Shown: one piece after another, positions 4,572-40,378 of the stretch
Layout of the letters: the number at the start of each line of letters is the position of its first letter
Position numbering within the stretch: position 1 is the first letter of the stretch
Source of the DNA: Balneolaceae bacterium
GTDB lineage: Bacteria > Bacteroidota > Rhodothermia > Balneolales > Balneolaceae
DNA: 64,000 bases
Assembly (NCBI GenBank): GCA_009711805.1
Contig: VEMX01000012.1
Location: 1 to 64,000 of the forward strand
Reading direction: 5' to 3'
Translations under genes and position numbers: made by a program
Notes under the pieces: generated by a model
The model's input: the letters and a program-made list of their open reading frames with translations, nothing else
The model's database searches: none
Told to the model about the DNA's origin: nothing

Positions 4572-4601
4572 AGGTAATTGAGAGTAAATATATACGAATA
4601 A

Positions 4602-5033: not shown

Positions 5034-5545
5034 TGTAGGTCTGTTTTTTTCGTGGATATACCTAACCGAATATGAATAAGCTCGGTTCCCTAATCAAGGA
5101 AAAGTTTTGAGGGATTTAGTTTTTGGGGTTCAGGATTTGGTGATTAAGTAGAAAGGCAGAAGGGAAAAGTAAAAAGGCAATGTCCCCACCTGGGCGCTCC
5201 GTATGATCTGGAGGGGGATGACGTCCGTTGATTTAGTACCGACCAGATAATCTGTACAGTAAAATCTTGGAATTTTATTCTTTAACAACGTTGTGATCTA
5301 TGATTCAAATGAAACTTTATTTTACATCCCGTATAAAATCCTCTCCAGGAACGTCGTTGGCTCGACCTTCGCCCGGAAGATTACTCATTGATGTTGATCC
5401 AGGATTTTTCCCGATATCCTCATTCTATTTAAGACCTCCAAGGTTTCCTCATTGGCAGGAGTCGTTTACGAAGCTATCTTAGAAACCTTGGAGGTCTCGA
5501 AGTTAAATGTTAATTCAATGCTTTTTTATCTCAGGTTTATTCCCA
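5034..5545. other. gene-free intergenic region
   Basis: About 510 bp between the PTPS-like gene and a terminator. The short open frame at 5300-5482 shows no family features. The region holds the inverted repeat at 5433-5496 and, at its left end, the presumed promoter of the pterin operon, which I could not pinpoint. It appears to be degenerate repeat debris otherwise. Confidence 0.5.
5433..5496. repeat. 15-bp perfect inverted repeat with 34-nt spacer
   Basis: GACCTCCAAGGTTTC at 5433-5447 is the exact reverse complement of GAAACCTTGGAGGTC at 5482-5496. From memory, similar intergenic palindromes built on ACCTCCAAGGT are common in Bacteroidota genomes. It is not followed by a T tract, so I do not call it a terminator. 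Confidence 0.75.
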
Positions 5546-5578
5546 TAAAAAAGAGAGCCCCAATTCCTTGAGGCTCTC
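5546..5578 (-). terminator. intrinsic terminator of the TonB receptor/T9SS protein operon
   Basis: On the minus strand GAGAGCC pairs with GGCTCTC around a 12-nt loop and is followed by TTTTTT. It lies about 60 bp past the stop codon of the T9SS protein. Confidence 0.85.
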
Positions 5579-5637
5579 CTGTGATCAGCACACCTCACAA
5601 TAAGTGAGACGTATATGTGAGTAGGACTTATACTCGG

Positions 5638-24551: not shown

Positions 24552-24673
24552 ATTTATAACCTTAAAAACAATAGCTCTCAATAAATGAAGAATCCAATAC
24601 CCACACGAATCAACATAGAGCCAAAACAATTGTAAGTTATAAAAAACAAAATAACAGAAATTAGTTTAGATGC

Positions 24674-24692
24674 TTATTTGATCACCAAATAA
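24674..24692. promoter_or_regulatory. 19-bp palindrome upstream of the AlbA_2 regulator (candidate operator)
   Basis: TTATTTG-ATCAC-CAAATAA has perfect 7-bp arms around five bases. It lies about 120 bp before the regulator start and about 90 bp from the nuoN stop. Autoregulation is plausible because the protein ends in a winged helix, but no other copy was noticed. Confidence 0.4.
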
Positions 24693-24778
24693 AAGTTAGT
24701 ATACATTGAGAGTTACCTGGCTGAATTCACAGCCATACTTATGCATACCAGATCAAACCAACATATCCCTGTATGCCA

Positions 24779-26245
24779 TCAGGGTATTAATACATTAGTA
24801 ACAGCACCAAGATTTCCGTAGGAATTCAGCAACTCCATCAAACCGGAAGCAGGCAGAATAGGCTCTATGCCATAATACAAGGTAAGTATGGCAAGTATGA
24901 TAATGGTCCCTTTATATAAAAGGGTTGGATTGAACAACTCTACTGGTTTGTGTTCTTCGCGGAAATACAAGTATACCATCACCCGCAGATAGTAATACAC
25001 ACTGGCCGCACTTGCTAATACACCAATTACGGCAAGAGTAACCATCTCTGCATTGATGGCAGCAGCAAACACATAGTACTTTCCTGCAAAACCAACTAAC
25101 GGAGGGATACCCGCTAAAGAAAATAGAAAAATGGATAAGGCAATTCCCATCACCGGTTTCTTAAAACCAAGACCGGCCAGGTTTTGAACCTCGCTGAAAT
25201 CCATGCCTTTGTTACGCTCGTAATAAGCTATCACGCCAAAAGCACCAATATTCATGATGGTGTAGGCAAACATATAAAAAAGTACGGCCGAATATCCTTC
25301 TGGCGTTCCGGCTGCCAGTCCAACAAGCGCATAGCCTGCGTGGGCAATACTTGAATAAGCCAGCATTCTCTTCAGGTTATCCTGTACAAGCGCAATGATA
25401 TTACCAAACACCATAGTTAGTATAGCGATAACTGAGAATACCATCTGCCAGTTCAACCCTTCCATTACAGGCAGTGCCCTGGACAGCACCATAATCAGAG
25501 CCACAAAAGTAGCTGCCTTCGAAGCGGTTGCAAAATAAGCTGTAAGTGTGGTGGGTGTACCCTGATAGACGTCAGGAGTCCACATATGGAATGGTACAGC
25601 TGATACTTTAAATAAGAAACCAACCAGCAATAAAGCCGCTCCCGCTAAAAATAACAGATCGGTACTTGCTGCAGCACCAATCGCCGAAATATTGGTCGTT
25701 CCCGTTGCTCCGTATATCAGGGCCATTCCATAGAGAAGAAAACCGGTGGAGAACGCTCCCAATAAAAAATATTTAAGTGCGGCTTCAGCCCCGGATTTTT
25801 CATCCTTAATGAGCCCTGCCATTACATATAAACAAATAGACATTGTTTCCAAACCGATAAAAAGGGTGATGAGATCGTTGGAACCTGCAAGGCACATCAT
25901 ACCTGTGGTAGCAAAAAGGATAAGGGCGTAAGTTTCCCCGTAGTAGTGATTAATTCCTTTCAGGTAATCTTCTGAAATAAATACACAGAACAGCGTGGCT
26001 ACAACAATAATTACATTCCCGAAAGCGACTGCGCCTCCATGTACCAGCATGCCTGAAAAGGCCGTATCCAGACCTGTCCCTAACGATTGTATACTAAAGA
26101 AGAGTGCTGCCACCAGCGATAGGACCGTAACCCAGAAAGTAGCCGAACTATCCTTCTTCAGTGATTCAATAACTATAACAATGAGTCCCGCCAGTGCGGT
26201 GATAACTCCGGGTAAAAAAGCTTGTATGTCGCCTAAATAATCCAT
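24779..26245 (-). CDS. nuoN: NADH-quinone oxidoreductase subunit N
   Basis: 488 residues, about 14 membrane helices. Antiporter-like subunit features are GLETMSICLYVMAGL with the conserved helix Glu, FLFKVSAVPFHMWTPDVYQG with the conserved Lys and the HMW motif, and LAYSSIAHAGYALVG. It is one of three proton-translocating antiporter-like subunits of complex I. It is the last gene of the nuoL-nuoM-pterin dehydratase-nuoN run, 8 bp after the dehydratase. Confidence 0.96.
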   Translation of the reverse strand: MDYLGDIQAFLPGVITALAGLIVIVIESLKKDSSATFWVTVLSLVAALFFSIQSLGTGLDTAFSGMLVHGGAVAFGNVIIVVATLFCVFISEDYLKGINHYYGETYALILFATTGMMCLAGSNDLITLFIGLETMSICLYVMAGLIKDEKSGAEAALKYFLLGAFSTGFLLYGMALIYGATGTTNISAIGAAASTDLLFLAGAALLLVGFLFKVSAVPFHMWTPDVYQGTPTTLTAYFATASKAATFVALIMVLSRALPVMEGLNWQMVFSVIAILTMVFGNIIALVQDNLKRMLAYSSIAHAGYALVGLAAGTPEGYSAVLFYMFAYTIMNIGAFGVIAYYERNKGMDFSEVQNLAGLGFKKPVMGIALSIFLFSLAGIPPLVGFAGKYYVFAAAINAEMVTLAVIGVLASAASVYYYLRVMVYLYFREEHKPVELFNPTLLYKGTIIILAILTLYYGIEPILPASGLMELLNSYGNLGAVTNVLIP

Positions 26246-26253
26246 TCGCTGTT

Positions 26254-26538
26254 TTATAAAACGCTTTCTATTGCTTGGGCAAGATCCACATCCTTTTGTG
26301 TAACCTTATTTCCGGCATCGTGTGTACTCAATTCGATTTTCACCGTATTGTACACATTATAAATACCGGGATGATGCACTTGCTTTTCAGCTTCCAGACC
26401 TAGCCGAACAATAAATCCGAGAGCCTCGCTGAAATTGTTAAATTCAAATTTCTTTTTGATTTTGTCGTCGCCAAGCTCCCAACCATTTAAAAACTCGAGA
26501 GCTTCACTAATTTCATCGTGTGAAAGTGGTTGTGCCAT
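26254..26538 (-). CDS. pterin-4a-carbinolamine dehydratase (4a-hydroxytetrahydrobiopterin dehydratase)
   Basis: 94 residues, the usual length. The active-site segment QVHHPGIYNVYNTVKIEL and STHDAGNKVTQKDVDLA match the PCD/DCoH family (HHPxxxxxYNxVxxxLxTHDxGGxTxxD). It dehydrates 4a-hydroxytetrahydropterin formed by aromatic amino acid hydroxylases, and is also tied to molybdopterin metabolism in some bacteria. Here it sits between nuoM (1 bp upstream) and nuoN (8 bp downstream), so it is translated from a complex I mRNA. No phenylalanine hydroxylase gene is in the window, although FolE2 and PTPS are. Confidence 0.93.
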   Translation of the reverse strand: MAQPLSHDEISEALEFLNGWELGDDKIKKKFEFNNFSEALGFIVRLGLEAEKQVHHPGIYNVYNTVKIELSTHDAGNKVTQKDVDLAQAIESVL

Positions 26539-26539
26539 C

Positions 26540-28150
26540 TTAGTTGGTTGATGCTAATTGTGATTCTGCTTCGTCAATATCATATAACTTTGCAGTCCAG
26601 TCCGGGAGTTCATCACGACTTGTATTCTTAATAACGGCCATGCTTTTCTCCTCGGATGAACTCAGTAATTCTTGTACCTGAGCTTCAGAGTATTTGGTGA
26701 AATCTACCGGGTGTACTCCAATCCAAAACATAAATATCACCATGGGCACCAATAGCCCAATTTCGCGGGCATTCAGGTCTGCAAGGCTATTATTTTCTTC
26801 GTTGGTAATAGGACCGAACATTACCCGCTGGAACATCCAGAGCATATATACCGCAGCCAGAATTACTCCGGTAGTTGCTAATATGGCAAAGGCTTTGTTA
26901 CTGTAAAGCTCAGAAAAGAATGAGCCATTCAATATTAAAAATTCCCCGATAAACCCGTTTAATCCCGGCAGACCAATAGAGGCAAATGTGGCAATCATAA
27001 ACATTACAGTAAATATCGGAACCTTCTTTGCAATCCCACCAAAGTCTTTAATCATGCGGGTGTGTCGGCGGTCGTAAATCATACCAACAATGAGGAAGAG
27101 GGCACCGGTTGAAAGACCGTGATTAATCATCTGCAGGATAGCACCCTGCACCGCTACCGCGTTAAAAGCAAATATGCCCAATACTACAAAACCAAGGTGA
27201 CTCACCGAAGAGTACGCAACCAGTTTTTTTACATCTTTCTGTACCATCGCCACCAGGGCACCATATATAATACCGATGACCGCCAGTGTTGCCATCCATG
27301 GAGCAAACTCCATAAAAGCATTTGGGAATATGGGCAAACAAACACGGATCAGTCCGTAGGTTCCCATCTTAAGCATGATGGCAGCCAGTACAACAGATCC
27401 TGCCGTTGGTGCCTCGGTATGGGCATAAGGCAGCCAGGTATGAAATGGGAAAAGCGGCACTTTAATACAAAAAGCCAGGGCAAAAGCCAGGAATAAATAG
27501 GTTTGCTGTTCCAAACCTATCTGATACAGATTACTGGATAAAAACCTCCAGTCGGTAGTAAAGTTGACTCCATTCATTACTGCACCAGCATCATATCCTA
27601 CATAGATAAGGCCAACGAGCATAATGAGCGACCCTACAAGGGTATAAATAAAGAACTTTATAGTAGCTCTGATTCTGTCGGCTCCTCCCCATATTCCAAT
27701 CAGGAAGTACATGGGAATGAGTGAAAGCTCAAAGAACACATAAAAAACCATCAGGTCAAGTGAAGCAAATACCCCCAGCGAAGCTGTCTGAAGCAGCAAT
27801 AACATAGACAGATAGCCTGCCAGGTGTTTTTTGACTGAATCCCATGAGGATAGAATCACGATAGGCCCCATAAAGGTGGTGAGCATAAAAAGAAGCAGAC
27901 TAAGACCGTCTAACCCAACCAGGTACTTGATGTCCAGAGATTCCATAATCCGACTACCCTCGCTTAGGTATTGAGCGGTACCAGACCCGGCTACATTAAA
28001 ATTAAAAAGGAGTGGGAGCGATAAAATGAACGTAAGAGACGTCACGATAAGTGCAATCCATTTCCTGGAATTCTCATTCTTCAACATTAGAATTAAGGGA
28101 ATTCCCAACAGGGGTAAATAAATGGTGATATTTAAAAGTGCTTCCATCAA
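26540..28150 (-). CDS. nuoM: NADH-quinone oxidoreductase subunit M
   Basis: 536 residues with about 14 helices. Typical chain M motifs: FFELSLIPMYFLIGIWGG with the conserved Glu, FCIKVPLFPFHTWLPYAHTEAP with the conserved Lys, and LVAYSSVSHLGFVVLG. An extra roughly 35-residue hydrophilic C-terminus (SSSEEKSMAVIKNTSRDELP) extends past the last helix. It lies between nuoL (14 bp upstream) and the pterin dehydratase. Confidence 0.96.
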   Translation of the reverse strand: MMEALLNITIYLPLLGIPLILMLKNENSRKWIALIVTSLTFILSLPLLFNFNVAGSGTAQYLSEGSRIMESLDIKYLVGLDGLSLLLFMLTTFMGPIVILSSWDSVKKHLAGYLSMLLLLQTASLGVFASLDLMVFYVFFELSLIPMYFLIGIWGGADRIRATIKFFIYTLVGSLIMLVGLIYVGYDAGAVMNGVNFTTDWRFLSSNLYQIGLEQQTYLFLAFALAFCIKVPLFPFHTWLPYAHTEAPTAGSVVLAAIMLKMGTYGLIRVCLPIFPNAFMEFAPWMATLAVIGIIYGALVAMVQKDVKKLVAYSSVSHLGFVVLGIFAFNAVAVQGAILQMINHGLSTGALFLIVGMIYDRRHTRMIKDFGGIAKKVPIFTVMFMIATFASIGLPGLNGFIGEFLILNGSFFSELYSNKAFAILATTGVILAAVYMLWMFQRVMFGPITNEENNSLADLNAREIGLLVPMVIFMFWIGVHPVDFTKYSEAQVQELLSSSEEKSMAVIKNTSRDELPDWTAKLYDIDEAESQLASTN

Positions 28151-28164
28151 CTAATTAGTGACAA

Positions 28165-30186
28165 TTACATTACCATTAAATAAAGAATAACAATTACGCC
28201 GATCACAAAGGCCAGCGCATAACTTGATACAACTCCGGTTTGTACATATCGGAATAAACTTCCAAAGAGTTTTACGGTGCCGGCAGTGGCATTTACAAAT
28301 CCGTCTACCACTTTCATATCAAACACTGCAAGAACTTTGTCGGATACTCTTACAATCGGTCGAACAATCAGCCCTTCATACACTTCATCCAGATTGTATT
28401 TATCTTTCCAAAGATCGTAGAGACCTCCAAACCGTTTGGCTATAGCCGCATCCGATTCCTGCTGCTGATTGTTGTTGTACATTCGGAATGCCACGACAAC
28501 ACCCAGAACTGCAATCACAATAGATGTGGCCATAAGCCCCCATTCTACCGCATGTGATAAAGTAAGCTCTACATCGGCGGTAACATGATGCAGCCAGTTA
28601 TGAAGCAGATTGACATGGGCTTCTTCGTGAGTAAATGTTTCTACTATGAAATTCGGTACTCCTAAAAATCCACCTACCGTAGCGGCTCCCGCCAGTGTCC
28701 AAAGCGGTATTGTCATGGTTGCAGGGCTTTCATGCAGATATTTCTCTGCGCCAATAGCTTCTTTAAAGCGTTTACCCAGTTTAAACTCTCCATGAAAAGT
28801 TGTAAGAGTGAGCCGGAACATATAAAAAGCCGTAAGGAATGCTGTAATTATGCCCACTCCCCACAGAGCCATATACATATAACTGCCAAACTCACCTGCT
28901 CCGGCATTGGCTGCCATTGCGAGAACTTCATCCTTGGAAAAGAAACCTGCCAGCGGAGGGATACCGGCAATGGCTATGGTTGAAATCAGAAATGTCTTAT
29001 AGGTAGAGGGCATATACTTCCTAAGCCCTCCCATATTCCGCATATCCTGCGGGTCGAAGTGAACGTCCTTGCCTTCATGCTCCAGTTCGTGCTCTACGTG
29101 GTGCATGGTGTGAATCACAGAACCAGAACCGAGGAATAAACAAGCTTTAAAGAATGCGTGAGTCACCACATGGAACATAGCTGCTGTAAAGCCTCCCGCC
29201 CCCAGCGCCAGGAACATATACCCCAGCTGTGAAACGGTTGAGTAGGCCAGCACACTTTTAATATCGTTTTGGGTAATTGCTATGGTTGCGGCTACTATAG
29301 CGGTTAACGCCCCTATCACAGCTACCACCAGCATCACTTCCGGGGACAACACATACATGGGCGACATTCTCGAAATCAGGTAAATTCCGGAGGTTACCAT
29401 AGTTGCGGCGTGAATAAGAGCCGACACCGGGGTAGGACCAGCCATCGCATCCGGCAGCCATACAAACAGCGGAATCTGAGCCGACTTACCGGTTGCCCCT
29501 ACAAACATCAGCAAACCAATAGCCACAATATATTCTTCAGAAAAGGCTTCGAGGTTACCAAGAATAGCATCAAAATTCAGACTTCCAACGGTCTGGAATA
29601 CCATAAACATCGCAATCAGGAAAGCAAAGTCGCCCACCCGATTGTATATAAAAGCTTTTTTAGCTGCATCCGACTTGGCCATATCGGTGTACCAGAAGCC
29701 AATCAACAGGTATGAACAAACGCCCACCCCTTCCCAGCCGAGGAAAAGCAATAACAGGTTATTCCCCAATACCAGGTTCAGCATTGCAAAGATGAACAGG
29801 TTCAGGTAAGCAAAAAACTTCCAATACCCTTCATCATCGGCCATATACCCCATTGAGTACAGATGAATCAAGAAACCAACCCCGGTAACAACCAGGGTCA
29901 TCATAATAGAAAGCTGGTCGATGCGGTAGGCTATGTCTACGCTGAAGCTGCCCGCCTCTATCCAGGTAAAGAGTTTAAATACTACTGCCTCTGAACCTGC
30001 ATTCATATTCATGAAAAAATAGACAGCAATAACGAAAGGAATAAAAACGGCTGTATTGGCTATAATGCCAATAAGCTGTTTTTTAGTTCTAAAGCTTTCT
30101 ACAAACAGACCGATAATCCCATTTATGAGAAAACCAGCCAATGGAAGAGCAATAATGAGTGACAACAACGCCGTAGCGGATTCCAT
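28165..30186 (-). CDS. nuoL: NADH-quinone oxidoreductase subunit L
   Basis: 673 residues, usual for NuoL with its long lateral helix. Core motifs: LFLGWEGVGVCSYLLIGFWY with the conserved Glu, GATGKSAQIPLFVWLPDAMA with the conserved Lys, TPVSALIHAATMVTSGIYL, and VLAYSTVSQLGYMFLALG. The histidine-bearing HVVTHAFFKACLFL is present. It is the first gene of this group: the next gene upstream, nhaD, is divergent, so nuoA-K are not adjacent. A predicted promoter is present upstream. Confidence 0.97.
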   Translation of the reverse strand: MESATALLSLIIALPLAGFLINGIIGLFVESFRTKKQLIGIIANTAVFIPFVIAVYFFMNMNAGSEAVVFKLFTWIEAGSFSVDIAYRIDQLSIMMTLVVTGVGFLIHLYSMGYMADDEGYWKFFAYLNLFIFAMLNLVLGNNLLLLFLGWEGVGVCSYLLIGFWYTDMAKSDAAKKAFIYNRVGDFAFLIAMFMVFQTVGSLNFDAILGNLEAFSEEYIVAIGLLMFVGATGKSAQIPLFVWLPDAMAGPTPVSALIHAATMVTSGIYLISRMSPMYVLSPEVMLVVAVIGALTAIVAATIAITQNDIKSVLAYSTVSQLGYMFLALGAGGFTAAMFHVVTHAFFKACLFLGSGSVIHTMHHVEHELEHEGKDVHFDPQDMRNMGGLRKYMPSTYKTFLISTIAIAGIPPLAGFFSKDEVLAMAANAGAGEFGSYMYMALWGVGIITAFLTAFYMFRLTLTTFHGEFKLGKRFKEAIGAEKYLHESPATMTIPLWTLAGAATVGGFLGVPNFIVETFTHEEAHVNLLHNWLHHVTADVELTLSHAVEWGLMATSIVIAVLGVVVAFRMYNNNQQQESDAAIAKRFGGLYDLWKDKYNLDEVYEGLIVRPIVRVSDKVLAVFDMKVVDGFVNATAGTVKLFGSLFRYVQTGVVSSYALAFVIGVIVILYLMVM

Positions 30187-30248
30187 TAAATATGTTAGTT
30201 TTAATTTTTACCAGATACCGCAACTATTCACGGCTCTAAAATGGTTGG

Positions 30249-30278
30249 CAAAGATACAAAAAACTAAAGGAAGGTAAA
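30249..30278 (-). promoter_or_regulatory. predicted promoter of nuoL-nuoM-PCD-nuoN
   Basis: Minus-strand TATCTTTG (30249-30256) matches TAnnTTTG, with CTTTA about 19-23 nt upstream. It lies about 60 nt before the nuoL start, in the 249-bp divergent region shared with nhaD. It supports nuoL being the first gene of its transcript. Confidence 0.55.
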
Positions 30279-30435
30279 GACTGTTTTGCCGTATTTTTAT
30301 GGATTCTTAATAAATCCCGTTTACAATATTTTATGAGAAAGATGAATTGTTATTGAGTTCCATTTTTGAAAGCCACCGGCAAATATTATTTTATCGCACT
30401 TGAAAAAATTTTAAACCTATTCAAAGCAAATATTC

Positions 30436-31875
30436 GTGAGTTCAAAATCATTATTTCGAAAACTTCGTCTGTTATTAGCCCCCATCTTTGTATTAATAGC
30501 TTCTGGAGTTGCATTTGCAGCTGAAGGAGGCTCCGGTCATGGAATATCAGGAGCTGAATTAGGGCTTCTGTGGGTTATTCCATTTGCGGGAATACTACTC
30601 TCTATTGCCATTTTCCCTCTCGTAGCAGAGGATTTCTGGCATCATCATTTTGGAAAAATATCCGCTTTTTGGGGTATTTTACTCATTATTCCCTTAGTTA
30701 TTAAGTTTGGCTTTAGTGCAGCTTTGTATGAAGTACTTCACGTTTACTTACTGGAATACATTCCTTTCATCATCCTGCTGTTTGCACTCTTCACCATTTC
30801 AGGTGGTGTCCGAATTAAAGGATATTTGCAGGGCACCCCGGCTGTTAACACCGCTATTTTATTGATTGGTACCTTACTGGCCAGCTGGATGGGAACAACA
30901 GGAGCAGCAATGCTGCTTATCCGCCCTTTGCTGCGTGCCAATGCCTGGAGAAAGAAAAAAGCGCATATCGTCATTTTCTTCATTTTCCTGGTAGCTAACG
31001 TTGGTGGATCTCTCACTCCTCTGGGTGATCCTCCCTTATTCCTTGGATTCCTTCAGGGAGTGAGTTTCTTCTGGACCACATCACACTTGTTTGTGGAAAT
31101 GAGTTTTGTAGTAGTCATCCTGCTTATCCTTTATTATTTCTGGGATATGGCCATGTTTAAGAAAGAAGAAGGTCATCCCCCAACCAGTGAAGGCAGTGAG
31201 CCCCTGGGAATTGAAGGTGGATTTAACCTCTTACTGTTAGGAGGTGTCATTGGAGCCGTATTGTTCTCCGGTCTGGTAAAAATGGGAGATTTTGCGGTAT
31301 ACCACGTACATGTCCACTATGAAAACCTGATCCGGGACCTTAGTTTACTGGGACTCTCTTGGTTGAGCTGGCATTTTACCTCAAAAGAAAGTCGGGCTGC
31401 CAACGGTTTTAACTGGTTTCCTATTCAGGAAGTAGGGAAACTTTTTGCCGGGATTTTTGTCACTATTATTGCTCCTATTGCAATGTTAAAAGCTGCACAA
31501 ACCGGCCAGGGAGCTCTGCAATTTGTGAATGACGCTGTGTTTACCGCAGGCGAACCAAACAACACTATGTTCTTCTGGATTACGGGTATGCTCTCAGCAT
31601 TCCTCGATAATGCCCCCACTTACCTGGTCTTCTTTAATGCAGCCGGCGGTAATGCTCAGGCCTTGATGTATGAAATGACCCAAACACTGGTTGCTATTTC
31701 AGCGGGTTCGGTTTTCTTTGGGGCACTTACGTATATTGGAAACGCACCAAACTTTATGGTAAAATCTATTGCCGAACAAGATGGTGTGAATATGCCCAGC
31801 TTTGGAGGCTATATGTTGTGGTCGTTCGGAATACTTATTCCGGTGTATATACTGGTCACACTCATTTTTATTTAA
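30436..31875 (+). CDS. nhaD: NhaD-type sodium:proton antiporter
   Basis: 479 residues starting with GTG (30436-30438); the following MSSKSLFRKLRLLLAPIFVL and AFAAEGGSGHG look like a cleaved or anchor-type N-terminus found in NhaD proteins. About 12 helices. Ion transporter superfamily signatures: WMGTTGAAMLLIRPLL, GGSLTPLGDPPLFLGFL and FLDNAPTYLVFFNAAGG with the functional Asp. NhaD exchanges cytoplasmic sodium for external protons and suits a marine or saline organism. It is divergent from nuoLMN and 4 bp upstream of an Omp85-type gene, with a terminator hairpin just after its stop. Confidence 0.92.
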   Translation: MSSKSLFRKLRLLLAPIFVLIASGVAFAAEGGSGHGISGAELGLLWVIPFAGILLSIAIFPLVAEDFWHHHFGKISAFWGILLIIPLVIKFGFSAALYEVLHVYLLEYIPFIILLFALFTISGGVRIKGYLQGTPAVNTAILLIGTLLASWMGTTGAAMLLIRPLLRANAWRKKKAHIVIFFIFLVANVGGSLTPLGDPPLFLGFLQGVSFFWTTSHLFVEMSFVVVILLILYYFWDMAMFKKEEGHPPTSEGSEPLGIEGGFNLLLLGGVIGAVLFSGLVKMGDFAVYHVHVHYENLIRDLSLLGLSWLSWHFTSKESRAANGFNWFPIQEVGKLFAGIFVTIIAPIAMLKAAQTGQGALQFVNDAVFTAGEPNNTMFFWITGMLSAFLDNAPTYLVFFNAAGGNAQALMYEMTQTLVAISAGSVFFGALTYIGNAPNFMVKSIAEQDGVNMPSFGGYMLWSFGILIPVYILVTLIFI

Positions 31876-31879
31876 CCGA

Positions 31880-33046
31880 ATGAATATTTCATATCGACTT
31901 ATAATGTTTAAAGGAGCAGTTATACTGCTCCTTTTTTTTGGCCTCTGGCAAAACACACATGCCCGCCAGGCAACGGTCACAGATACGGTTAGCTATGCCT
32001 TTCTGCCCGCCCTGTCCTACAATACCGATATTGGTTTTCTGGCGGGTGGAATTATGGATCGCTACCAATTTAAAGAAGGAGTACGTCCATTCTATTCTTA
32101 TATGAGCACGGCCGCCATTGCCTCTACCAAAGGGTTAATATCCGCCCAATTATTTATTGATCGGCCTGAGGTATTTAATTCGAACTTCAGGGTCAGCTCA
32201 GAAACATATTTCTCGCGTTTTCTTCAGGATCAATACTACGGCATCGGAAATTATGGAAAGCTGGATAATCCTCCCGAGAATAAACCAGATTACTATATGT
32301 TCCAGTCTTTTTCTGCCGGACAAACCTTCAGCCTCCGCGCACCTATATGGTATGCTGCGACTAACCATCACCTTGACCTGATTGGCAGTTTAGATGCTGC
32401 ATATCAAACTCCTTTCGATAATGACTCTACCCACCTGATCACTCTTCAGGCTCCACCTGGCTATAAAGGAGGAGCTACCATCTCGTTAGGCGGTGGACTC
32501 ATTTGGGATAGCCGTGACAGTGAATTCAGGCCCACTACCGGTAACCGTTTCCGCGTTGAAGGTAAACTGGCCAACAAATTCTACGGCAGTTCCTTTAATT
32601 ACTTCCTCCTCGAGGCCGAAGCCCGCACCTATACTTCTTTTCATCTGATCCGGAAAATCACTTTTGCCAACCGTATCCTTTTTGAACACTCTTCTGGAGA
32701 TGCTCCCTATTGGAAACTCCCTTACGCCGGCGGCGAAGAAACCATGCGTGGATATCCTGAAAACCGCTTTATGGATGACAATATGATTGTCTTTAACACT
32801 GAACTACGCACATGGCTGTTCAGTCTCCCCAGCATAGACGCTGAATTTGGGGGCACCCTCTTTATCGATATCGGTAATTCATTCTCAAACGGCACTTCTT
32901 TTAACCATCTTCTCAAGGACCTGAACTATACCTTTGGATTTGGAGGGACCAGCTCCTTCTTTAATGAAAACTTTATTTTTCGTGGTGATTTCGGTTTTTC
33001 TGATGAAGATATGGGCGTCTATTTCACTGCCGGCTATATGTTTTAG
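31880..33046 (+). CDS. BamA/TamA (Omp85) family outer-membrane protein without POTRA domains
   Basis: 388 residues from the ATG at 31880, four bp after nhaD; an alternative ATG is 31904. A signal peptide (FKGAVILLLFFGLWQNTHA) leads directly into a barrel. Features: DIGFLAGGIMDRYQF, GGGLIWDSRDSEFRPTTGNR and the Omp85 lid-loop type motif MRGYPENRF, then a C-terminal strand ending in FTAGYMF. The length fits a bare 16-strand barrel, as in short bacterial surface-antigen (D15-like) proteins. Function is unknown: it could be a lipid or protein handling barrel. The signal-peptide codons coincide with a perfect terminator hairpin (31910-31939). Confidence 0.85.
   Translation: MNISYRLIMFKGAVILLLFFGLWQNTHARQATVTDTVSYAFLPALSYNTDIGFLAGGIMDRYQFKEGVRPFYSYMSTAAIASTKGLISAQLFIDRPEVFNSNFRVSSETYFSRFLQDQYYGIGNYGKLDNPPENKPDYYMFQSFSAGQTFSLRAPIWYAATNHHLDLIGSLDAAYQTPFDNDSTHLITLQAPPGYKGGATISLGGGLIWDSRDSEFRPTTGNRFRVEGKLANKFYGSSFNYFLLEAEARTYTSFHLIRKITFANRILFEHSSGDAPYWKLPYAGGEETMRGYPENRFMDDNMIVFNTELRTWLFSLPSIDAEFGGTLFIDIGNSFSNGTSFNHLLKDLNYTFGFGGTSSFFNENFIFRGDFGFSDEDMGVYFTAGYMF
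31910..31939 (+). terminator. perfect terminator hairpin inside the signal-peptide codons of the Omp85-type gene
   Basis: AAAGGAGCAGT (31910-31920) pairs perfectly with ACTGCTCCTTT (31924-31934) around TAT, and eight Ts run from 31932 to 31939. It is 35 bp after the nhaD stop, where a terminator would be expected, yet encodes residues 3-12 of the next protein counted from the ATG at 31904. It may attenuate downstream transcription unless ribosomes cover it. Confidence 0.8.
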
Positions 33047-33730
33047 CGGGTGCCTTCATTAAGGGGTAAGAATGGTTTGGAAACAACAACACGACTTGCC
33101 ATTATCGGACCTCTTTTGTTTTCTCCTCACCCTCTCATTCTCGTCTGTCTTTGTGAAGTGCGGCCACTACCTCAATCAGTATTGATATGGTTAGCCCGAA
33201 TTATTCACGAATGGATGCAAAATAGCGATCTATATACTTGAATATATTACCATTGAATTGCTTTATGTAATAGCCCAATTTTGAGGTACGGATTAGGCGG
33301 GTTAGTTGCCATGAAGGCTGATACTGCTGTGTACTCCACCTCACCTAAATCTTTTCCTGGAGGAGAGGATTTATTAGCCAAACAATAGATCGTTTACTCA
33401 CTTTTTAGATTTTGGAACCTATTGAACAGCTCTCTCCTTGTGCGCCGCAGACGTCCCCAGGGGGGAAGGAGAGGGTTTCCCGAGGGGGTGCCTTCAGCAG
33501 GGTAAGGTCCGGGGAAAAGACAATGAGTAATGTTTTCTGTTTCTAAACCTACCGGAAGGATCGGGGCTTCACTGCGAACAAGAAGGGAGATGCAGAACAA
33601 AGCTCAATGCCAGGTCTCAAATAAACAAAATGGCCAACATGTGAAAAGGCAGAAGCCCCGGCTCCTTCTCACTTCTGCTTTCTCATTTTTTCATAAATCC
33701 TTCATATCAGATACCTATCATAGTAGCTGA
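33047..33730. other. gene-free intergenic region
   Basis: About 680 bp between the Omp85-type gene and hemN. Short open frames (33050-33241, 33394-33600) have no family features, and the first runs into repeat DNA. The region contains the truncated inverted-repeat element at 33191-33300. The right end must hold the hemN promoter, which I could not define; no TAnnTTTG of good quality was found near it. Confidence 0.5.
33191..33300 (+). mobile_element. MITE-like inverted-repeat element, left part only
   Basis: 110 bp matching element positions 1-110 of the complete copy at 57651-57886 (inverse orientation) with about three mismatches. It begins TTAGCCCGAATTATTCAC, one base different from the terminal repeat, and stops sharply after GATTAGGCGG, so the right half is deleted or was never present. 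Confidence 0.8.
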
Positions 33731-35101
33731 ATGAATGAATATCCTATGATGAACGCTAAACTGATCCAGAAATTTAATGTACCCGGTCCCAGGTACACCA
33801 GCTACCCTACGGTTCCATACTGGGACGAAAACGGAATCTCTGTTCAAGACTGGAAATCTACCCTCCTTCAGTCTTTTGAAGACAACCGGGGTGAGGGTAT
33901 CAGCATATATATACACCTTCCTTTTTGCGAAAGCCTGTGCACTTTTTGCGGCTGCCATAAAAGAATTACCAAACGGCACGAGGTGGAAGCTCCATACATC
34001 CAGACCCTGCTAAAAGAGTGGAAGCTTTACACAGACCTTCTCCCAGCTAAACCTAAAATCAGAGAAATACATCTTGGGGGAGGAACACCTACTTTTTTTG
34101 GAGCCGACAATTTAAAAAAGTTGATTAACGGTATTCTGGAACAGGCCGAACTGGCTGAACACGTAGAATTTAGTTTCGAGGGACATCCCAACAATACCAC
34201 AAGAGAGCATTTACAGGAGCTGTATGACCTGGGCTTCCGAAGAGTTTCTTTTGGAGTTCAGGATTATGATATGGGAGTACAAATTGCGATTAACAGGGTA
34301 CAACCGTTTGAACAGGTTCAAAAAGTTCACCAATGGGCTAAGGAAATAGGCTATATCTCTGTTAATCATGACCTGGTTTTTGGCCTCCCCCATCAAACCG
34401 AAGACAGTGTCAGGAAGACGATTGAAAAGACCAATGAACTAAAACCAGACCGCATTGCCTACTACAGCTATGCACATGTACCCTGGATTAAAGGTGTGGG
34501 ACAGCGTGGGTTTGATGAGAACGATCTCCCTAAAGATGAAGAGAAACGAGCGTTGTATGAGATCGGAAAATCTATGTTTTATGATAACGGCTATGTGGAA
34601 ATAGGTATGGACCATTTCGCCCTCCGCAGTGATTCTCTATACAAAGCCATGGAATCAAAAACATTGCACCGCAATTTTATGGGTTATACCACCAGCAACA
34701 CACGCATGTTAATCGGACTTGGGATGTCATCCATAAGTGACAGCTGGTACGGCTTTGCCCAGAATGAGAAAAAACTGGAAGATTACCAGGCTCAGATAGA
34801 TACTGGAGAACTTGCCATTTTCCGTGGACATAAACTCAACCAGGAAGATCTGCTTCTTCGCCGGCAAATCCTCAATGTGATGTGTCACTTCGAAACTACT
34901 TTTGATGGCAATGATGAGTTGTTTGAGGATATAAAAAATGATCTTTCAGAACTTGAGTCTTGTGGACTGGTTAACATCTCCGGGAATAGTATTACTGTTC
35001 CCCGGGAAGGGATTCCTTTCGTCCGCAATATTTGTATGGCCTTCGACCGCAGACTAAAACGCTCTAAACCAGATCGCCACCTCTTTTCCAAAACAGTATA
35101 A
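33731..35101 (+). CDS. hemN: oxygen-independent coproporphyrinogen III oxidase
   Basis: 456 residues. The radical SAM cluster motif is C66-x3-C70-x2-C73 in PFCESLCTFCGCHK, preceded by PRYTSYPTVPYW, which is diagnostic for true HemN rather than HemW. Further HemN positions: LGGGTPTFF, FEGHPNNTTREHL, RVSFGVQDYD and GMDHFALRSDSLYKA. It converts coproporphyrinogen III to protoporphyrinogen IX without oxygen. Start: ATG 33731; a second ATG at 33746-33748 gives MNAKLIQKFN and is nearly as good. No other haem genes are nearby. Confidence 0.95.
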   Translation: MNEYPMMNAKLIQKFNVPGPRYTSYPTVPYWDENGISVQDWKSTLLQSFEDNRGEGISIYIHLPFCESLCTFCGCHKRITKRHEVEAPYIQTLLKEWKLYTDLLPAKPKIREIHLGGGTPTFFGADNLKKLINGILEQAELAEHVEFSFEGHPNNTTREHLQELYDLGFRRVSFGVQDYDMGVQIAINRVQPFEQVQKVHQWAKEIGYISVNHDLVFGLPHQTEDSVRKTIEKTNELKPDRIAYYSYAHVPWIKGVGQRGFDENDLPKDEEKRALYEIGKSMFYDNGYVEIGMDHFALRSDSLYKAMESKTLHRNFMGYTTSNTRMLIGLGMSSISDSWYGFAQNEKKLEDYQAQIDTGELAIFRGHKLNQEDLLLRRQILNVMCHFETTFDGNDELFEDIKNDLSELESCGLVNISGNSITVPREGIPFVRNICMAFDRRLKRSKPDRHLFSKTV

Positions 35102-35312
35102 TACCATCTGGGCTTCAAATAACAGATAGTCCTATTCCACCAACATCAGTTTAAACAAAAGGGCTCAGAAGTTTCCTGCACTGGTTTTTTTGTTTTCCCC
35201 GCTTGTACGGTTAACAAGGATTCACCAGAACCTGCTAAAAAAATCATCCTCGCAAGCCCCATCAATTCTGCATTCTGATTCTTATATTCCCATTCATCAA
35301 CAAAACAAATCT

Positions 35313-36188
35313 ATGAGCTTGAGTAAAACTACCCTGGGACCTTTTGAATTATATACCATAGAAACCGGTGATATTAAATTGGACGGAGGAGCCATGTTTG
35401 GTGTGGTCCCAAAAACATTATGGTCGAGAGGAATCCCTGCCGATGAGAAAAACCGTATTCCTATGACAATGCGCTGTCTTCTTATTAAATCCAACAATAC
35501 CGGCAAAATATACCTTGTTGACAATGGAGCAGGAACTAAGTTCAACGAGAAGATGGAAAACATATATCAACTCGATTATTCGGATAAAAACATCCACAAA
35601 TCGCTTAAGACCCATGGTTTTTCAGAAGAAGATATCAGTGACATTATCTTTACCCATCTCCACTTCGACCACTGTGGAGGAACTACCTATTATGATGAGC
35701 AGGGGCATATTCAGTTCACCTTCCCCAACGCAACCTATCATGTAACCAAAACACACTGGAAAAGTGCAACAGATCCTAATGCACGGGAAAAAGCCAGCTT
35801 TATCAACGACAATATAGAGCCTCTCTCCGGCTCTGAGGTTCTTCATTTTGTGGATGGAGAACATGAATATGAACCAGGCCTCTCCACCATTCTGGCGAAC
35901 GGGCATACCATCGGTCAACAGCTTCCAAAAATAGAAGCTGATGGTAAAACACTCATTTTTGTAGCTGATTTACTCCCCACCCATGTTCATGTACCTCTCC
36001 CCTGGGTTATGGGGTATGATATGTATCCCGTGCAAACGCTGACCGAAAAAGATGCGTTTTTAAAGCAAGCAGCAGAGAAAGACTGGAAATTATATCTGGA
36101 ACATGACGTCAAACACGAAGTGATAACAATTACTTATGATGGCAGAAAGTTTAAAGTTAAAGACTTTCTGAAACTTTCTGATCTCTAA
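35313..36188 (+). CDS. MBL-fold metallo-hydrolase
   Basis: 291 residues from the ATG at 35313-35315 (MSLSKTTLGPFELYTIETGD). The open frame reaches back to 35190, but that extension is low-complexity and lacks family resemblance. Metal-binding motif: THLHFDHCGG (HxHxDH), with a later H in LANGHTIGQQ, an Asp in VADLLPTHVH and a final H in LEHDVKHEV. This resembles the lactonase/AttM-like or AidB-unrelated MBL hydrolases (COG0491) acting on small esters or lactones; substrate unknown. A single gene between hemN and the DUF4175 gene. Confidence 0.87.
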   Translation: MSLSKTTLGPFELYTIETGDIKLDGGAMFGVVPKTLWSRGIPADEKNRIPMTMRCLLIKSNNTGKIYLVDNGAGTKFNEKMENIYQLDYSDKNIHKSLKTHGFSEEDISDIIFTHLHFDHCGGTTYYDEQGHIQFTFPNATYHVTKTHWKSATDPNAREKASFINDNIEPLSGSEVLHFVDGEHEYEPGLSTILANGHTIGQQLPKIEADGKTLIFVADLLPTHVHVPLPWVMGYDMYPVQTLTEKDAFLKQAAEKDWKLYLEHDVKHEVITITYDGRKFKVKDFLKLSDL

Positions 36189-36251
36189 ACCTGCAATATT
36201 TACTATTAATTACGGTTTTTGATGTAGCAGTATCCTTTCTTAATATATCCT

Positions 36252-39200
36252 ATGGACAATCAAAGAGCAGAAATAACAGTCGCCCAGGTAACCGCCAAGC
36301 TTAAGCAGGCCTACAGGGATACGAACCAAAAGGAAAAGGGAGCCATCTTTTTCAGGGCTTTTTTAATTCTGTTGGCAGGATTTAGCGCCTTTGTAGTTGC
36401 CGAACAACTGCTATACTTCTCAGGCACCACAAAATCGGTTTCATTGTTTCTATTGGTAGCCATCGCTGCATACAAGCTGTGGCGTGGATATAGCTCAGTA
36501 CAAAAAATAAGCTTTGAAGATTATTACAGAGACTTCAGCCGAAAAAGTAAGCTAACCGAATTAAAAGACAGCCTGGACCTGGGAAAAGATACAATCGGAA
36601 ACCCTGCTTTGGTAAACGCAGCTATTCTGCAGAATATGACCCGTATTAAGCCCGGAAAGCTGGATCAGGCTCTCCAGTCTTACAGCAGGCAAACATCAGC
36701 CTATAGTCAGTTTCGAACCTTAGGTGCCCTCACCGGTATGTTCGTTATCGTTGCTTCCGTAACAGCTTTTAATTTTACCTCTGCGGCCTCCAGAACAATT
36801 ACATTCTGGGAAAGTTTTGAAAAACCAAACCCCTACCTGTTCACCATCTCACCGGGAGATATAACTGTAGAACAAGGCCAGCCCTTTAGTGTAAGCGTGC
36901 AGTTTAAAGGAGCCCAACAACCAGAAAAAGTGGTTTTACATGTAAAAACTACTGTTGAAGAAGAATATCGGTCACGCGTCATGGCTGGCGGCCAAAACAC
37001 CTATACCTCTATCCCCTTCGACCTCAACAACGACCTGCTGTACTATGTGCAAATGGATGAATACCGGAGTCCGGTATATGAAGCAAATGTACAGCTTCCT
37101 CCCCGATTTACTGAATTAAAAGCAGCGATCCAGCCTCCGGCCTATACCGGCCTTGACCGCACCCAACTCTCATATCCCTTTTCACAGATTCGCGCATACC
37201 AAGGCTCGCAAATTGAATTCAGCGGTATCATTAATAAGGAAGTCATCAAGCTATTTCTTCTATCCACGAGTGATACCCTCTCGCTGCAAACCGATTCAAC
37301 CTTTAGTTTCAGCCATCGGGTACCGATAGCCCATAACGATACCCTCACTTTTGTGATGGAAGATGGGGACGGTTTGACAAATAAAAACCCCTTCCAGGTA
37401 ATTATAACGCCCCGAACAGATGAATACCCTGTTGTTGAAGTAATTGAACCTGAGGCTTCCTTTGAAAAGGTAAACCCCAAACAGATAGAGCTTTTATACC
37501 GTGCTACAGATGATTTCGGCCTCACCAGGGCCCGGCTTAAATATGAATTAAGCAGGGCATATGTTGAGAATCCGCTTACAGGAACTCTCTCATTGGAAAA
37601 CCCTGAAAACGGGGTGTTACAACCGTTTAACTGGGATCTTGAAGAACTGCGGCTGAAACCTCAGGATGTACTCTCCTTTTGGGTAGAAGTAGCAGATAAT
37701 GATGGCTACAACGGCCGTAAAACCACTCGCTCGCAGGTACTTACCTTAAGTGTACCCTCCATGGTTGATTACTTTGAAAGCCTGGATGAAAAAGAAGAAA
37801 ATGTAGATACCGAACTGGATGATATCTCCGAATCTTTCAAACAGATGCAGGACAGCTACAAGCAGTTTAAAGAAAAGATGAAAGAGCAGCCTGAACAAGC
37901 CGGCTATGAGCAGAAGAAAGAGCTTGAGCAAACAAAAAAATTACAAGAAGACGTCCAGAAGAAAGTTGATGATCTAAATAAACAGTTCGAAGAGATCAAG
38001 AAAGAACTCAGCGAAAACAGTATGCTTTCGGAAGAAACACAGAGAGCATATGAAGAACTGCAAAAACTCATGGAAGAGGTGGACGACCCGGAGTTTTTAA
38101 AGCTGATGGAAGAAATGAGGAAAAAACTGGTAGAGCTATCTCCTGAACAGCTTCGGAATATGATGGAGCAAACTGAGTTTAAAGAAGAAGAGTACCGCCA
38201 GCGCTTAGAGCGGACTATTGAACTCTTTAAACAACTCAAGCTTAGTTCTGATCTGGATAAAATCACCCAGTCTTTTAAAGACCTGGCTCGAAAAGAAGGG
38301 GAAATGGAACAAAATAAACCGCCAAAGAAAGAACAAGATCAACAGCGGGAAAAAACGATAGAAGACACTAAAAAAATCCAGGAACAGATTGAGGAACTAT
38401 CTGAAAATACAACCAGCGGAAACCGTAAGGATGTTGAAGAATACCAGAAAAACACAAAGCGGGAAATAGAAAAGTTGCTGGAAAAACTAAAAAAGCAGCT
38501 GGAAGACATTCAGAAAAAAAACAACGAACAAAACGGACAGCAAAACCAAAACAGTAATACTAATTTCCAGCAACAATATCAGCAACTGGCTCAAAAAACC
38601 GAAGAGCTCAAAAACGCCCTATCCAGTAAACAAATGCAGATCAATATATCCGGCTTGCAGTATGCACTGTACTCCTTATTGAATTTATCTGTCGAACAGG
38701 AAGATCTGGTAACACTGGCTTCTGCTACTGAAAACCGAAGTCAGGCGTATGTAGGATATGCAAGGGATCAAAAAAATATTGAATCAATATTCAGCAGCAT
38801 TTCGGATTCTCTCTTCCAGCTTTCATCTCAAATTCCACAATTCTCCAATCAAATTAACACCAAAAAGCTGGAAGTTGAAAAACGATTAAGCCGCTCTCTT
38901 AAACAAATGGCCGAGCGTGATCAAAGTCAGTCTTCGGTGGCTTCGCGGCAGGCGATGGGGGGCATCAATGAAATCGCCTTTATGGTAGCCAATTTACTTG
39001 AGCAGCTTCAAAACTCTAATAGCGGAAGTGGAAGTGGCCAGGGAATGTCGATGCAGCAGATGATGGAGCAGATGCAAAAATCCGGGAAGAACCAGCAGCA
39101 GCTAAATCAGCAGATGCAGGATTTGATCAATGATATTCAGGGCGAACGCCTCACCAAAGATCAGATGGAGCGATTAAACCAGCTTGCTAAACAACAAAAC

Positions 39201-39611
39201 CAAATTCGTAAACAGCTCGAAGAGCTCCAGCGAAGCGGCGCCCTTAAAGGTGGAGACAAACTTGGAAGCGAGCTTCAGCGTGCTATAGAAGAAATGGAAA
39301 ACACCATTAATGATCTTAGGGGAGGCGTCACTGATCCTACTCTCATCAACAGACAGCAGAATATACTTTCACGCATGCTTGAAGCTGAAAAAGCCATGCA
39401 GGAACGGGATCAACAAGAAAAAAGAGAAGGCAGTACAGCTGACCAGATTCTACGACAAACATCCCCAGAACTAACCCTGGAAGAACTTGAAAAGCAGATC
39501 CGAAACCGCCTGAATGACCCGAACTTCACCAAATACTCGGCTGATTACCAGCGGCTTATTGAAAAATATTTTGAGTTGCTTAAAAAGCTCCAGGAGCGGG
39601 AACTACAGTAA
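36252..39611 (+). CDS. DUF4175 family large coiled-coil membrane protein
   Basis: 1119 residues. Two hydrophobic helices near 35-75 and one near 155-175 anchor the protein. An Ig-like/beta-rich part follows (about 190-500; DITVEQGQPFSVSVQFKG, PPAYTGLD). From about 515 the protein is a long coiled coil rich in Glu, Lys and Gln (EEIKKELSEN, LEELQRSGALKGG) with glutamine-rich linkers around 765-790 and 930-970. DUF4175 proteins are common in Bacteroidota and have no established function; a role in envelope architecture fits the layout. It is convergent with the HAD phosphatase 14 bp away. Confidence 0.88.
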   Translation: MDNQRAEITVAQVTAKLKQAYRDTNQKEKGAIFFRAFLILLAGFSAFVVAEQLLYFSGTTKSVSLFLLVAIAAYKLWRGYSSVQKISFEDYYRDFSRKSKLTELKDSLDLGKDTIGNPALVNAAILQNMTRIKPGKLDQALQSYSRQTSAYSQFRTLGALTGMFVIVASVTAFNFTSAASRTITFWESFEKPNPYLFTISPGDITVEQGQPFSVSVQFKGAQQPEKVVLHVKTTVEEEYRSRVMAGGQNTYTSIPFDLNNDLLYYVQMDEYRSPVYEANVQLPPRFTELKAAIQPPAYTGLDRTQLSYPFSQIRAYQGSQIEFSGIINKEVIKLFLLSTSDTLSLQTDSTFSFSHRVPIAHNDTLTFVMEDGDGLTNKNPFQVIITPRTDEYPVVEVIEPEASFEKVNPKQIELLYRATDDFGLTRARLKYELSRAYVENPLTGTLSLENPENGVLQPFNWDLEELRLKPQDVLSFWVEVADNDGYNGRKTTRSQVLTLSVPSMVDYFESLDEKEENVDTELDDISESFKQMQDSYKQFKEKMKEQPEQAGYEQKKELEQTKKLQEDVQKKVDDLNKQFEEIKKELSENSMLSEETQRAYEELQKLMEEVDDPEFLKLMEEMRKKLVELSPEQLRNMMEQTEFKEEEYRQRLERTIELFKQLKLSSDLDKITQSFKDLARKEGEMEQNKPPKKEQDQQREKTIEDTKKIQEQIEELSENTTSGNRKDVEEYQKNTKREIEKLLEKLKKQLEDIQKKNNEQNGQQNQNSNTNFQQQYQQLAQKTEELKNALSSKQMQINISGLQYALYSLLNLSVEQEDLVTLASATENRSQAYVGYARDQKNIESIFSSISDSLFQLSSQIPQFSNQINTKKLEVEKRLSRSLKQMAERDQSQSSVASRQAMGGINEIAFMVANLLEQLQNSNSGSGSGQGMSMQQMMEQMQKSGKNQQQLNQQMQDLINDIQGERLTKDQMERLNQLAKQQNQIRKQLEELQRSGALKGGDKLGSELQRAIEEMENTINDLRGGVTDPTLINRQQNILSRMLEAEKAMQERDQQEKREGSTADQILRQTSPELTLEELEKQIRNRLNDPNFTKYSADYQRLIEKYFELLKKLQERELQ

Positions 39612-39625
39612 CAGTGAAGGGGCCG

Positions 39626-40378
39626 CTATGCTCTTCTGTTATGTTCTACAATATCTTCGTATGCCTGCAACACTCCTTTAGTGGCCTCAGCGGTTATCAT
39701 CTGAACCTCATCTTTGGTATATGATTTAGCGTTTACGGGAGCATACGACTTACCAACAATCCTGAGAGCCGGTATATCTCCACTCGAGTCTCCAATATAA
39801 GCTACCTCACTGAGCTCAAAACCCAACACCTCACACAGAAACTTTACCCCCTCTCCTTTATTTGCCCTTTTGAGAATAATATTCACCGAAACATCGGTTT
39901 GATGCACCTCAAACATATTATAGTGTTGATCAATGTAATTGTTAATTTCCTTATGCATCAGGGCAATTTTGGTAGGGTCAGGGTTTACAAGGCCGGCATC
40001 CGTGTGTTTTGTAAACTCGGGGATTGTTCCTTTATAGTTTTTGATGATGGTATCATTCAGCCAGTGTTTAATTTCTGTTATAGCCATTTTTGCTTCTTCA
40101 CTAAACTGGGGATTCCAGCTAATGACATTTGTTTTGGAATCATACATCCCACCCCCGCTTTCAAATAATACCGGCAGGTCTACATCCAGCCATTGAGCAA
40201 GAGCCTCTACATAAGGGAACGGCCGTCCTGAGCAGATGGTAAGCGGAGGAATCAGCTTATTTTCATTCTCTTTACTCAGCTGATTCAACTCCCTGATCCG
40301 GGTAATTGCCTGCCAGTCAGGCGTTTTAAAAGGGTGAGCCAAACAACCGTCAAGATCCGATATAAATAACTTAATCAT
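39626..40378 (-). CDS. HAD superfamily hydrolase (Cof/mannosyl-phosphatase-like)
   Basis: 250 residues. HAD motif I is FISDLDGCL (nucleophile Asp8 and acid/base Asp10), motif II LTICSGRP, motif III Lys in ANKGEGVKFL and motif IV GDSSGDIPAL. The cap layout suggests the HAD-IIB type that dephosphorylates sugar or phosphoglycolate-like phosphates. Its start codon overlaps the last codons of the upstream VWA gene by 8 bp, so the two are translationally coupled. The substrate is unknown. Confidence 0.88.
   Translation of the reverse strand: MIKLFISDLDGCLAHPFKTPDWQAITRIRELNQLSKENENKLIPPLTICSGRPFPYVEALAQWLDVDLPVLFESGGGMYDSKTNVISWNPQFSEEAKMAITEIKHWLNDTIIKNYKGTIPEFTKHTDAGLVNPDPTKIALMHKEINNYIDQHYNMFEVHQTDVSVNIILKRANKGEGVKFLCEVLGFELSEVAYIGDSSGDIPALRIVGKSYAPVNAKSYTKDEVQMITAEATKGVLQAYEDIVEHNRRA

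Follow-up and report, generated by a model that had tools for sequence, protein, structure and literature searches.

Can the signal-peptide codons of one gene contain the terminator of the gene before it? The question arises in a Balneolaceae genome, within a stretch of 64,000 nt that was analyzed as a whole (hereafter, the window), where a perfect hairpin with a run of Ts stands shortly behind the gene of an NhaD-like transporter and, on the same bases, among the N-terminal codons of an Omp85-superfamily barrel protein. The first-pass annotation had proposed either that termination and the signal peptide share this DNA or that the hairpin is a translation-dependent attenuator. The best explanation of the sequences, to which we give a probability of roughly 0.7, is that the hairpin acts as an operon-internal intrinsic terminator (attenuator) of the transporter-barrel operon and that its bases double as codons for the signal peptide of the second gene. 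The features at the locus are as follows.

30436..31875, + strand: NhaD-like transporter gene, first cistron, 479 aa (open reading frame; Pfam CitMHS_2, E = 2.7e-186)
31880..33046, + strand: Omp85-superfamily barrel gene with signal peptide, second cistron, 388 aa from ATG 31880 (open reading frame; Pfam Omp85, E = 2.4e-18)
31880..31972, + strand: signal-peptide codons, MNISYRLIMFKGAVILLLFFGLWQNTHARQA (from the translation; extent judged by eye)
31910..31920, + strand: 5′ arm of the terminator-like stem, AAAGGAGCAGT, in the codons of K G A V (direct reading and fold)
31921..31923, + strand: 3-nt loop of the terminator-like hairpin, TAT (fold and direct reading)
31924..31934, + strand: 3′ arm of the terminator-like stem, ACTGCTCCTTT, in the codons of I L L L F (direct reading and fold)
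31932..31939, + strand: run of eight Ts forming the U-tract, three in the stem and five after it, in the hydrophobic-core codons LFF

The barrel gene begins four bases past the transporter gene, with ATG 31880 and ATG 31904 as alternative starts. Every in-frame start of the barrel gene precedes the stem, and there is no further start between the hairpin and the conserved mature part, so the hairpin codes for a protein that needs its signal peptide. The first gene, initially called nhaD, matches Pfam CitMHS_2; no NCBIfam model names the transporter, and nhaD is kept here as a likely name only. The barrel has no sequence match in the PDB at E ≤ 0.01. A divergent gene with proton-antiporter/complex I domains (28165–30186) precedes the transporter gene, and a radical-SAM gene at 33731 comes after the barrel gene. 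In the three transporter-less relatives examined (G024, G026, and G027; loci L122, L125, and L124, respectively), the barrel gene is located behind antiporter-like genes, and its downstream neighbors are those of the transporter-bearing G030 (L123). The genes ahead of the barrel in G024 match Pfam MnhB, MNHE, PhaG_MnhG, and Proton_antipo_M, which are Mrp-type Na+/H+ antiporter subunits; the Pfam naming covers G024 only, and NCBIfam gave mostly sub-cutoff matches with the same names. The occurrence of a cation/proton antiporter before the barrel in both arrangements favors a real operon over a chance neighbor and suggests a functional link between this Omp85-family barrel and cation/proton antiport.

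The two arms of the stem (31910–31920 and 31924–31934) are exact reverse complements that form 11 bp, including five G-C pairs, around a loop of 3 nt, and Ts continue behind the 3′ arm to 31939. Direct reading and the fold both bear out the perfect stem and short loop described in the first-pass annotation. The eight Ts that it reported (31932–31939) are also present, but three of them already belong to the stem, so “11 bp plus eight Ts” counts these twice. The peptide encoded across 31907–31942 is FKGAVILLLFFG, in the frame of either ATG. The fold energy of 31876–31945 is −19.6 kcal/mol, and none of 200 dinucleotide shuffles was as good. Based on strict criteria (perfect stem of ≥11 bp, loop of 3–8 nt, and ≥7 Ts in 8), this hairpin is the only site on both strands of the window, and 40 first-order Markov windows contained no such hairpin on either strand. 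A looser scan of 24000–40000 ranked it first of 25 sites, with 15.4 sites expected. A short G+C-containing stem with a short loop is a criterion for intrinsic (Rho-independent) terminators that was also used in the scan, and the hairpin has this form, together with a U-tract directly 3′ of the stem with five Ts beyond it. As first claimed, it lies where the terminator of the transporter gene belongs, 34 nt past the stop (stem start at +35) and on the same strand, ahead of most of the barrel gene, and its bases code in frame for the signal peptide of the next protein; the intergenic terminators in 461 kb of the window’s genome (n = 29) lie at a median of 44 nt past the stop. A search of 29900–33600 against Rfam returned seven matches up to E = 5, none reaching its gathering score.

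The barrel has a match in 85 of 92 family genomes (E ≤ 0.001) and the transporter in 28 of 92 (E ≤ 1e-60), a patchy distribution compared with the near-universal barrel. All 28 transporter loci, including that of the window, were compared along with one order-level outgroup, G343. The barrel is directly behind the transporter in 24 of the 28, the exceptions being G008, G035, G075, and G082, the last with just 479 nt of sequence behind the transporter. Ten genomes have a KGA-type hairpin in common. In G032 and G033, the stem in this position has an entirely different sequence, GGGCGATA / TATCGCCC, and encodes another peptide. G084 and G088 carry a third stem type, of which one genome has GGTATG/CATACC and the other GGCATG/CATGCC. 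A fourth stem is found further into a longer N-terminal region in five further members of genus g20 (loci L052, L053, L056, L057, and L058, with GCTAGC-type arms at +64 to +120), and may or may not be related to the third. In 12 genomes, the first base of the stem falls between +28 and +35 relative to the transporter stop, a candidate barrel start is located at 0 to +5 from that stop, and the stem begins 25–33 nt after the nearest candidate junction start, with ATG 31904 as an alternative in the window.

In the recoding test, the signal-peptide region was randomized while the peptide and codon usage were kept, and the best hairpin directly before a U-tract was scored. No recoding out of 1000 matched the hairpin of the window. 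Hairpin and U-tract were matched by ≤21 of 1000 recodings in 19 of the 24 adjacent pairs. By this synonymous-site test, hairpin and signal peptide are retained or re-formed together in most relatives with the pair, with stems that vary among lineages and in some are replaced outright. Two adjacent pairs failed (G041, 39/1000; G040, 120/1000) and no qualifying hairpin was found in three others (G034, G036, and G039); the transporter-barrel operon can do without the hairpin, as in these 5 of the 24.

The hairpin tracks the upstream gene. Eleven barrels without a transporter, one of which (L013) was mis-parsed, gave 348/1000 or worse in the same test, and a larger control set of barrels without a transporter in front included 1 of 38 at p ≤ 0.02 and 2 of 38 at p ≤ 0.05. 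With a uniform procedure, p ≤ 0.02 was reached by 17 of 25 cases (the 24 adjacent pairs and G008) versus 1 of 38 controls (Fisher 1.6e-8, calculated on rows that are not independent). The usable controls were 38 of 40 (L098 and L110 were without a barrel match) and include L103 from G035, a genome with a transporter elsewhere; the 60-codon limit of the procedure excluded the hairpin of L053 (G087). In the sole control at p ≤ 0.02, L119 (G068), an upstream gene overlaps the barrel start (L126, around 4108–5645). The L119 hairpin was matched by 1 of 500 recodings, and this locus may be another case rather than noise. A plain fold-energy test that did not require a U-tract was weaker (3/200 for the window and 23/200 for G003). 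On the barrel tree, which includes only 12 of the transporter-less barrels and a G029 row carrying part of its signal region, up to three independent transporter-differing pairs (2.8 on average) agree with the hairpin and none is opposite (p = 0.25), which is too few for significance.

These counts bear on whether Lys, Gly, and Ala codons followed by Leu and Phe codons might be complementary by chance. Signal-peptide starts, as called by a home-made rule, are indeed predisposed to a terminator-like composition: a U-tract occurs at the start of 57 of 76 such genes, further inside 18 of these 76, and at 67 of 187 starts of soluble proteins, and AAA ahead of the U-tract occurs at 37 of 76, 7 of 76, and 30 of 187, respectively. 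Weak hairpins before U-tracts are also common in random recodings. Such a coding coincidence is nevertheless highly improbable, being strongly disfavored by the recoding result for the window, the conservation of the hairpin, the replacement of its stem, and its dependence on the upstream gene.

Among six divergent genomes, identity is 0.88 in the stem versus 0.42 upstream and 0.38 downstream, and in the transporter gene, divergence at four-fold sites is close to saturation (0.30–0.42 per bin, in a different set of 14 genomes). Across 10 genomes, 98.2% of stem cells are paired. The 10 pairs of the main helix comprise five that are invariant, three with G-U, one with a both-sided change, and one with an unpaired cell. 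The both-sided change, G-C for A-U in G031, combines a silent Gly codon difference with Ser in place of the Leu found in the hydrophobic core of the others, which gives the impression that the RNA took precedence over the peptide. Within the main hairpin clade, covariation is thin, as this one both-sided change was reached in 44 of 500 shuffles. A perfect inverted repeat would also be expected of a DNA operator for a regulator. This explanation appears extremely improbable, however, as the G-U pairs preserve the symmetry of the RNA and not of the DNA, the sequences vary between lineages, and the T-run is 3′ of the stem on the transcribed strand, with no counterpart at this place on the other strand of the window. 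No conserved internal promoter for the barrel stands out in the 3′ end of the transporter gene, where four-fold identity is near background; the last nine codons form the highest four-fold bin (0.415).

The genome G008 and the outgroup G343 separate the hairpin from its coding use. G008 belongs to a clade of eight (support 100/98), of which the other seven members carry the overlap, and its place within the clade is poorly supported (91/42). The overlap is also carried by G000, G030, and G031, outside this clade, and by parsimony with these three genomes G008 appears to have lost it. An ORF of 363 aa with no Pfam match lies between hairpin and barrel in G008, and the hairpin, AAGGAGTAGTG..CACTGCTCCTT followed by Ts, persists in paired form outside the barrel ORF; it begins at +23, and its stem is longer (−18.1 vs. 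−15.6 kcal/mol in the window). The old register reads EGVVLALLLFL, apparently a remnant of the signal peptide; this frame opens only after a stop and ends short of the barrel, and it has no ATG, GTG, or TTG before the hairpin. The signal peptide of the G008 barrel is a different one and lacks the hairpin (207/1000 recodings). In G343, a hairpin with Ts is located at +24 behind the transporter, and no barrel is present in the 3623 nt of sequence available. Taken together, G008 and G343 indicate that the element behaves as a terminator of the transporter gene and that its coding use can be lost.

A hairpin near the second start codon could also work without termination, either as an mRNA processing or 3′-protection element on cleaved transporter mRNA or as a translational brake that slows entry into the barrel ORF, and the histidine-kinase family described below has conserved hairpins at a similar place with weak U-tracts. 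Such a role seems distinctly unlikely for the transporter-barrel pair, where the U-tract 3′ of the stem recurs with unrelated stems and both the G343 hairpin and the G008 copy resemble ordinary terminators.

If the hairpin is an operon-internal terminator, a polymerase leaving the transporter gene would form it approximately +28 to +35 past the stop, with the U-tract behind. Most transcripts would end there as transporter mRNA, and the readthrough fraction would carry the barrel gene. The candidate barrel starts lie upstream of the hairpin, so a full-barrel transcript must pass the hairpin whatever its promoter, and from this position of the start codon we infer that partial readthrough feeds the barrel gene. 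In Escherichia coli, termination efficiency plateaus (∼0.9) beyond 30 bp from the stop, and most of it is preserved when the terminator is placed 30 bp inside an ORF (PMC4824070). Because efficiency in E. coli is on its plateau at this distance and barely touched by new translation, strong but partial termination would be expected by analogy, with barrel mRNA made by readthrough. We also infer termination itself, its efficiency, and its purpose, which would be to set the transporter-to-barrel ratio. Selection on the RNA would fix much of the signal-peptide sequence K-G-A-x-x-L-L-L-F; signal peptides suit such double use because lysine codons give As and the Leu/Phe core gives the U-tract. Terminated transcripts would carry the barrel start codon without a stop, presumably at a cost, and transcripts of this type are discussed for an engineered construct in that study (PMC4824070).

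The hairpin may alternatively be gated by translation, in which case prompt re-initiation at the barrel start would melt it and barrel expression would follow the translation rate. In 12 genomes, the distance of 0 to +5 nt between stop and candidate start, with junctions such as TGATG and TAAGTG, favors coupled re-initiation, and coupled ribosomes are able to antiterminate intrinsic terminators (PMC7858274). Against this, the E. coli terminator placed 30 bp into an ORF lost only ∼10% of its efficiency through translation (PMC4824070), and the single 181-nt fold that was calculated contains no antiterminator and retains the terminator stem. Translation gating is rather unlikely. The two initial alternatives are not exclusive and both can hold: DNA shared between terminator and signal peptide is well supported by the 19 of 24 pairs, by the tracking of the transporter, and by persistence outside the barrel ORF in G008, and translation dependence is the less likely of the two.

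Similar hairpins were surveyed in 461 kb of the window’s genome and ∼408 kb each of two relatives, to which the transporter loci of G003 and G041 had been added on purpose. The survey identified eight strong hairpins in sense inside ORFs. Five of these are located <60 nt past an upstream stop, where the opening codons specify a hydrophobic N-terminus, and two of the five are the transporter-barrel hairpins. Of the three new ones, those of a lipoprotein and a histidine kinase are conserved in relatives with changing stems; the third, of a NAGPA glycosidase in G003, was conserved in only 1 of 19 homologues and was rejected. The lipoprotein (L156:13474–14715) has its hairpin at the signal-peptide start, 33 nt after the upstream gene, and its homologues (L168–L197) have several different stems. 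All 30 retrieved lipoprotein loci were tested and 16 were at p ≤ 0.05, the lipoprotein having a match in 89 of 92 genomes. In the histidine kinase (L140:1880–2929) and its homologues (L217–L241), the hairpin occupies the codons of the first membrane helix, with differing sequences and weak U-tracts. It exceeds synonymous expectation in 19 of 24 homologues, with 25 of 30 retrieved loci entered and no row from L239, and the query G003 itself gave only 20/300; this hairpin may not be a terminator. Both families were scored with a looser U-tract rule than the transporter-barrel and second-cistron tests.

A terminator-plus-recoding test in samples of the three genomes gave matches at 16 of 340 second-cistron starts, compared with 0 of 339 internal stretches and 1 of 447 first-gene starts. 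Four of the 16 (L064, L077, L146, and L165) were judged to be ordinary intergenic terminators with a start called too far upstream, leaving ∼12 of 340. A general excess of folding at second-cistron starts was considered and rejected (9/340 at p ≤ 0.01 vs. 6/340 internal stretches and 13/447 first-gene starts), and the terminator-specific score alone separates these starts. Tentatively, and with some doubt, the codons of N-terminal hydrophobic segments of second cistrons (signal peptides and first membrane helices) may be a recurrent home for operon-internal hairpin attenuators, with RNA selection writing part of the peptide, in at least three unrelated Balneolaceae gene pairs. If the class is general, it would give densely arranged operons a compact means of expressing their genes at unequal levels.

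A hairpin within an ORF is readily dismissed as a terminator, and the usual view of signal peptides is that only charge and hydrophobicity constrain them. Here, a transcription signal seems to determine part of the signal peptide, and a conserved peptide alone is therefore not evidence of protein function. In a trp-type leader-peptide attenuator, a stalled ribosome brings about an antiterminator hairpin; in the one 181-nt fold calculated here, the terminator stem is kept. The ampC attenuator hairpin reportedly lies in an untranslated leader. The Balneolaceae hairpin resembles the ampC/frd type in its place shortly after the upstream stop, on the same strand and with most of the downstream gene behind it, and differs from it in lying inside the barrel ORF rather than in an untranslated leader.

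The frd terminator of E. coli is the ampC attenuator, and the nlpD1 terminator of Burkholderia is the penA attenuator (PMC6045580). In these pairs, as probably here, the terminator of an upstream gene attenuates a downstream gene, the expression of which is set by readthrough; the nlpD1-penA hairpin is in an untranslated leader (PMC6045580), whereas the Balneolaceae hairpin is in signal-peptide codons and conserved there. Termination inside operons also lowers downstream genes at the ioTTS of Methanococcus, as would be the case here, but these sites are archaeal and intergenic (PMC10450193), while the Balneolaceae element belongs to a bacterium, is of the hairpin type, and lies in coding sequence. 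Premature 3′ ends inside E. coli ORFs, of which aceK int is probably due to intrinsic termination, likewise lie in coding sequence, as the 3′ ends predicted here would; the excerpts of that report give no signal-peptide overlap or cross-species conservation of hairpins (PMC7815308). An almost identical geometry is that of an artificial construct in which the tR2 terminator, placed 30 bp inside an ORF, works in E. coli (Li et al., PMC4824070), whereas the Balneolaceae element is natural and conserved. A literature search, which covered open-access articles and left most subscription journals outside it, yielded no description of a terminator that is conserved within signal-peptide codons. An upstream terminator that serves as a downstream attenuator is already known, and the new aspect is its conserved placement in the codons of a signal peptide.
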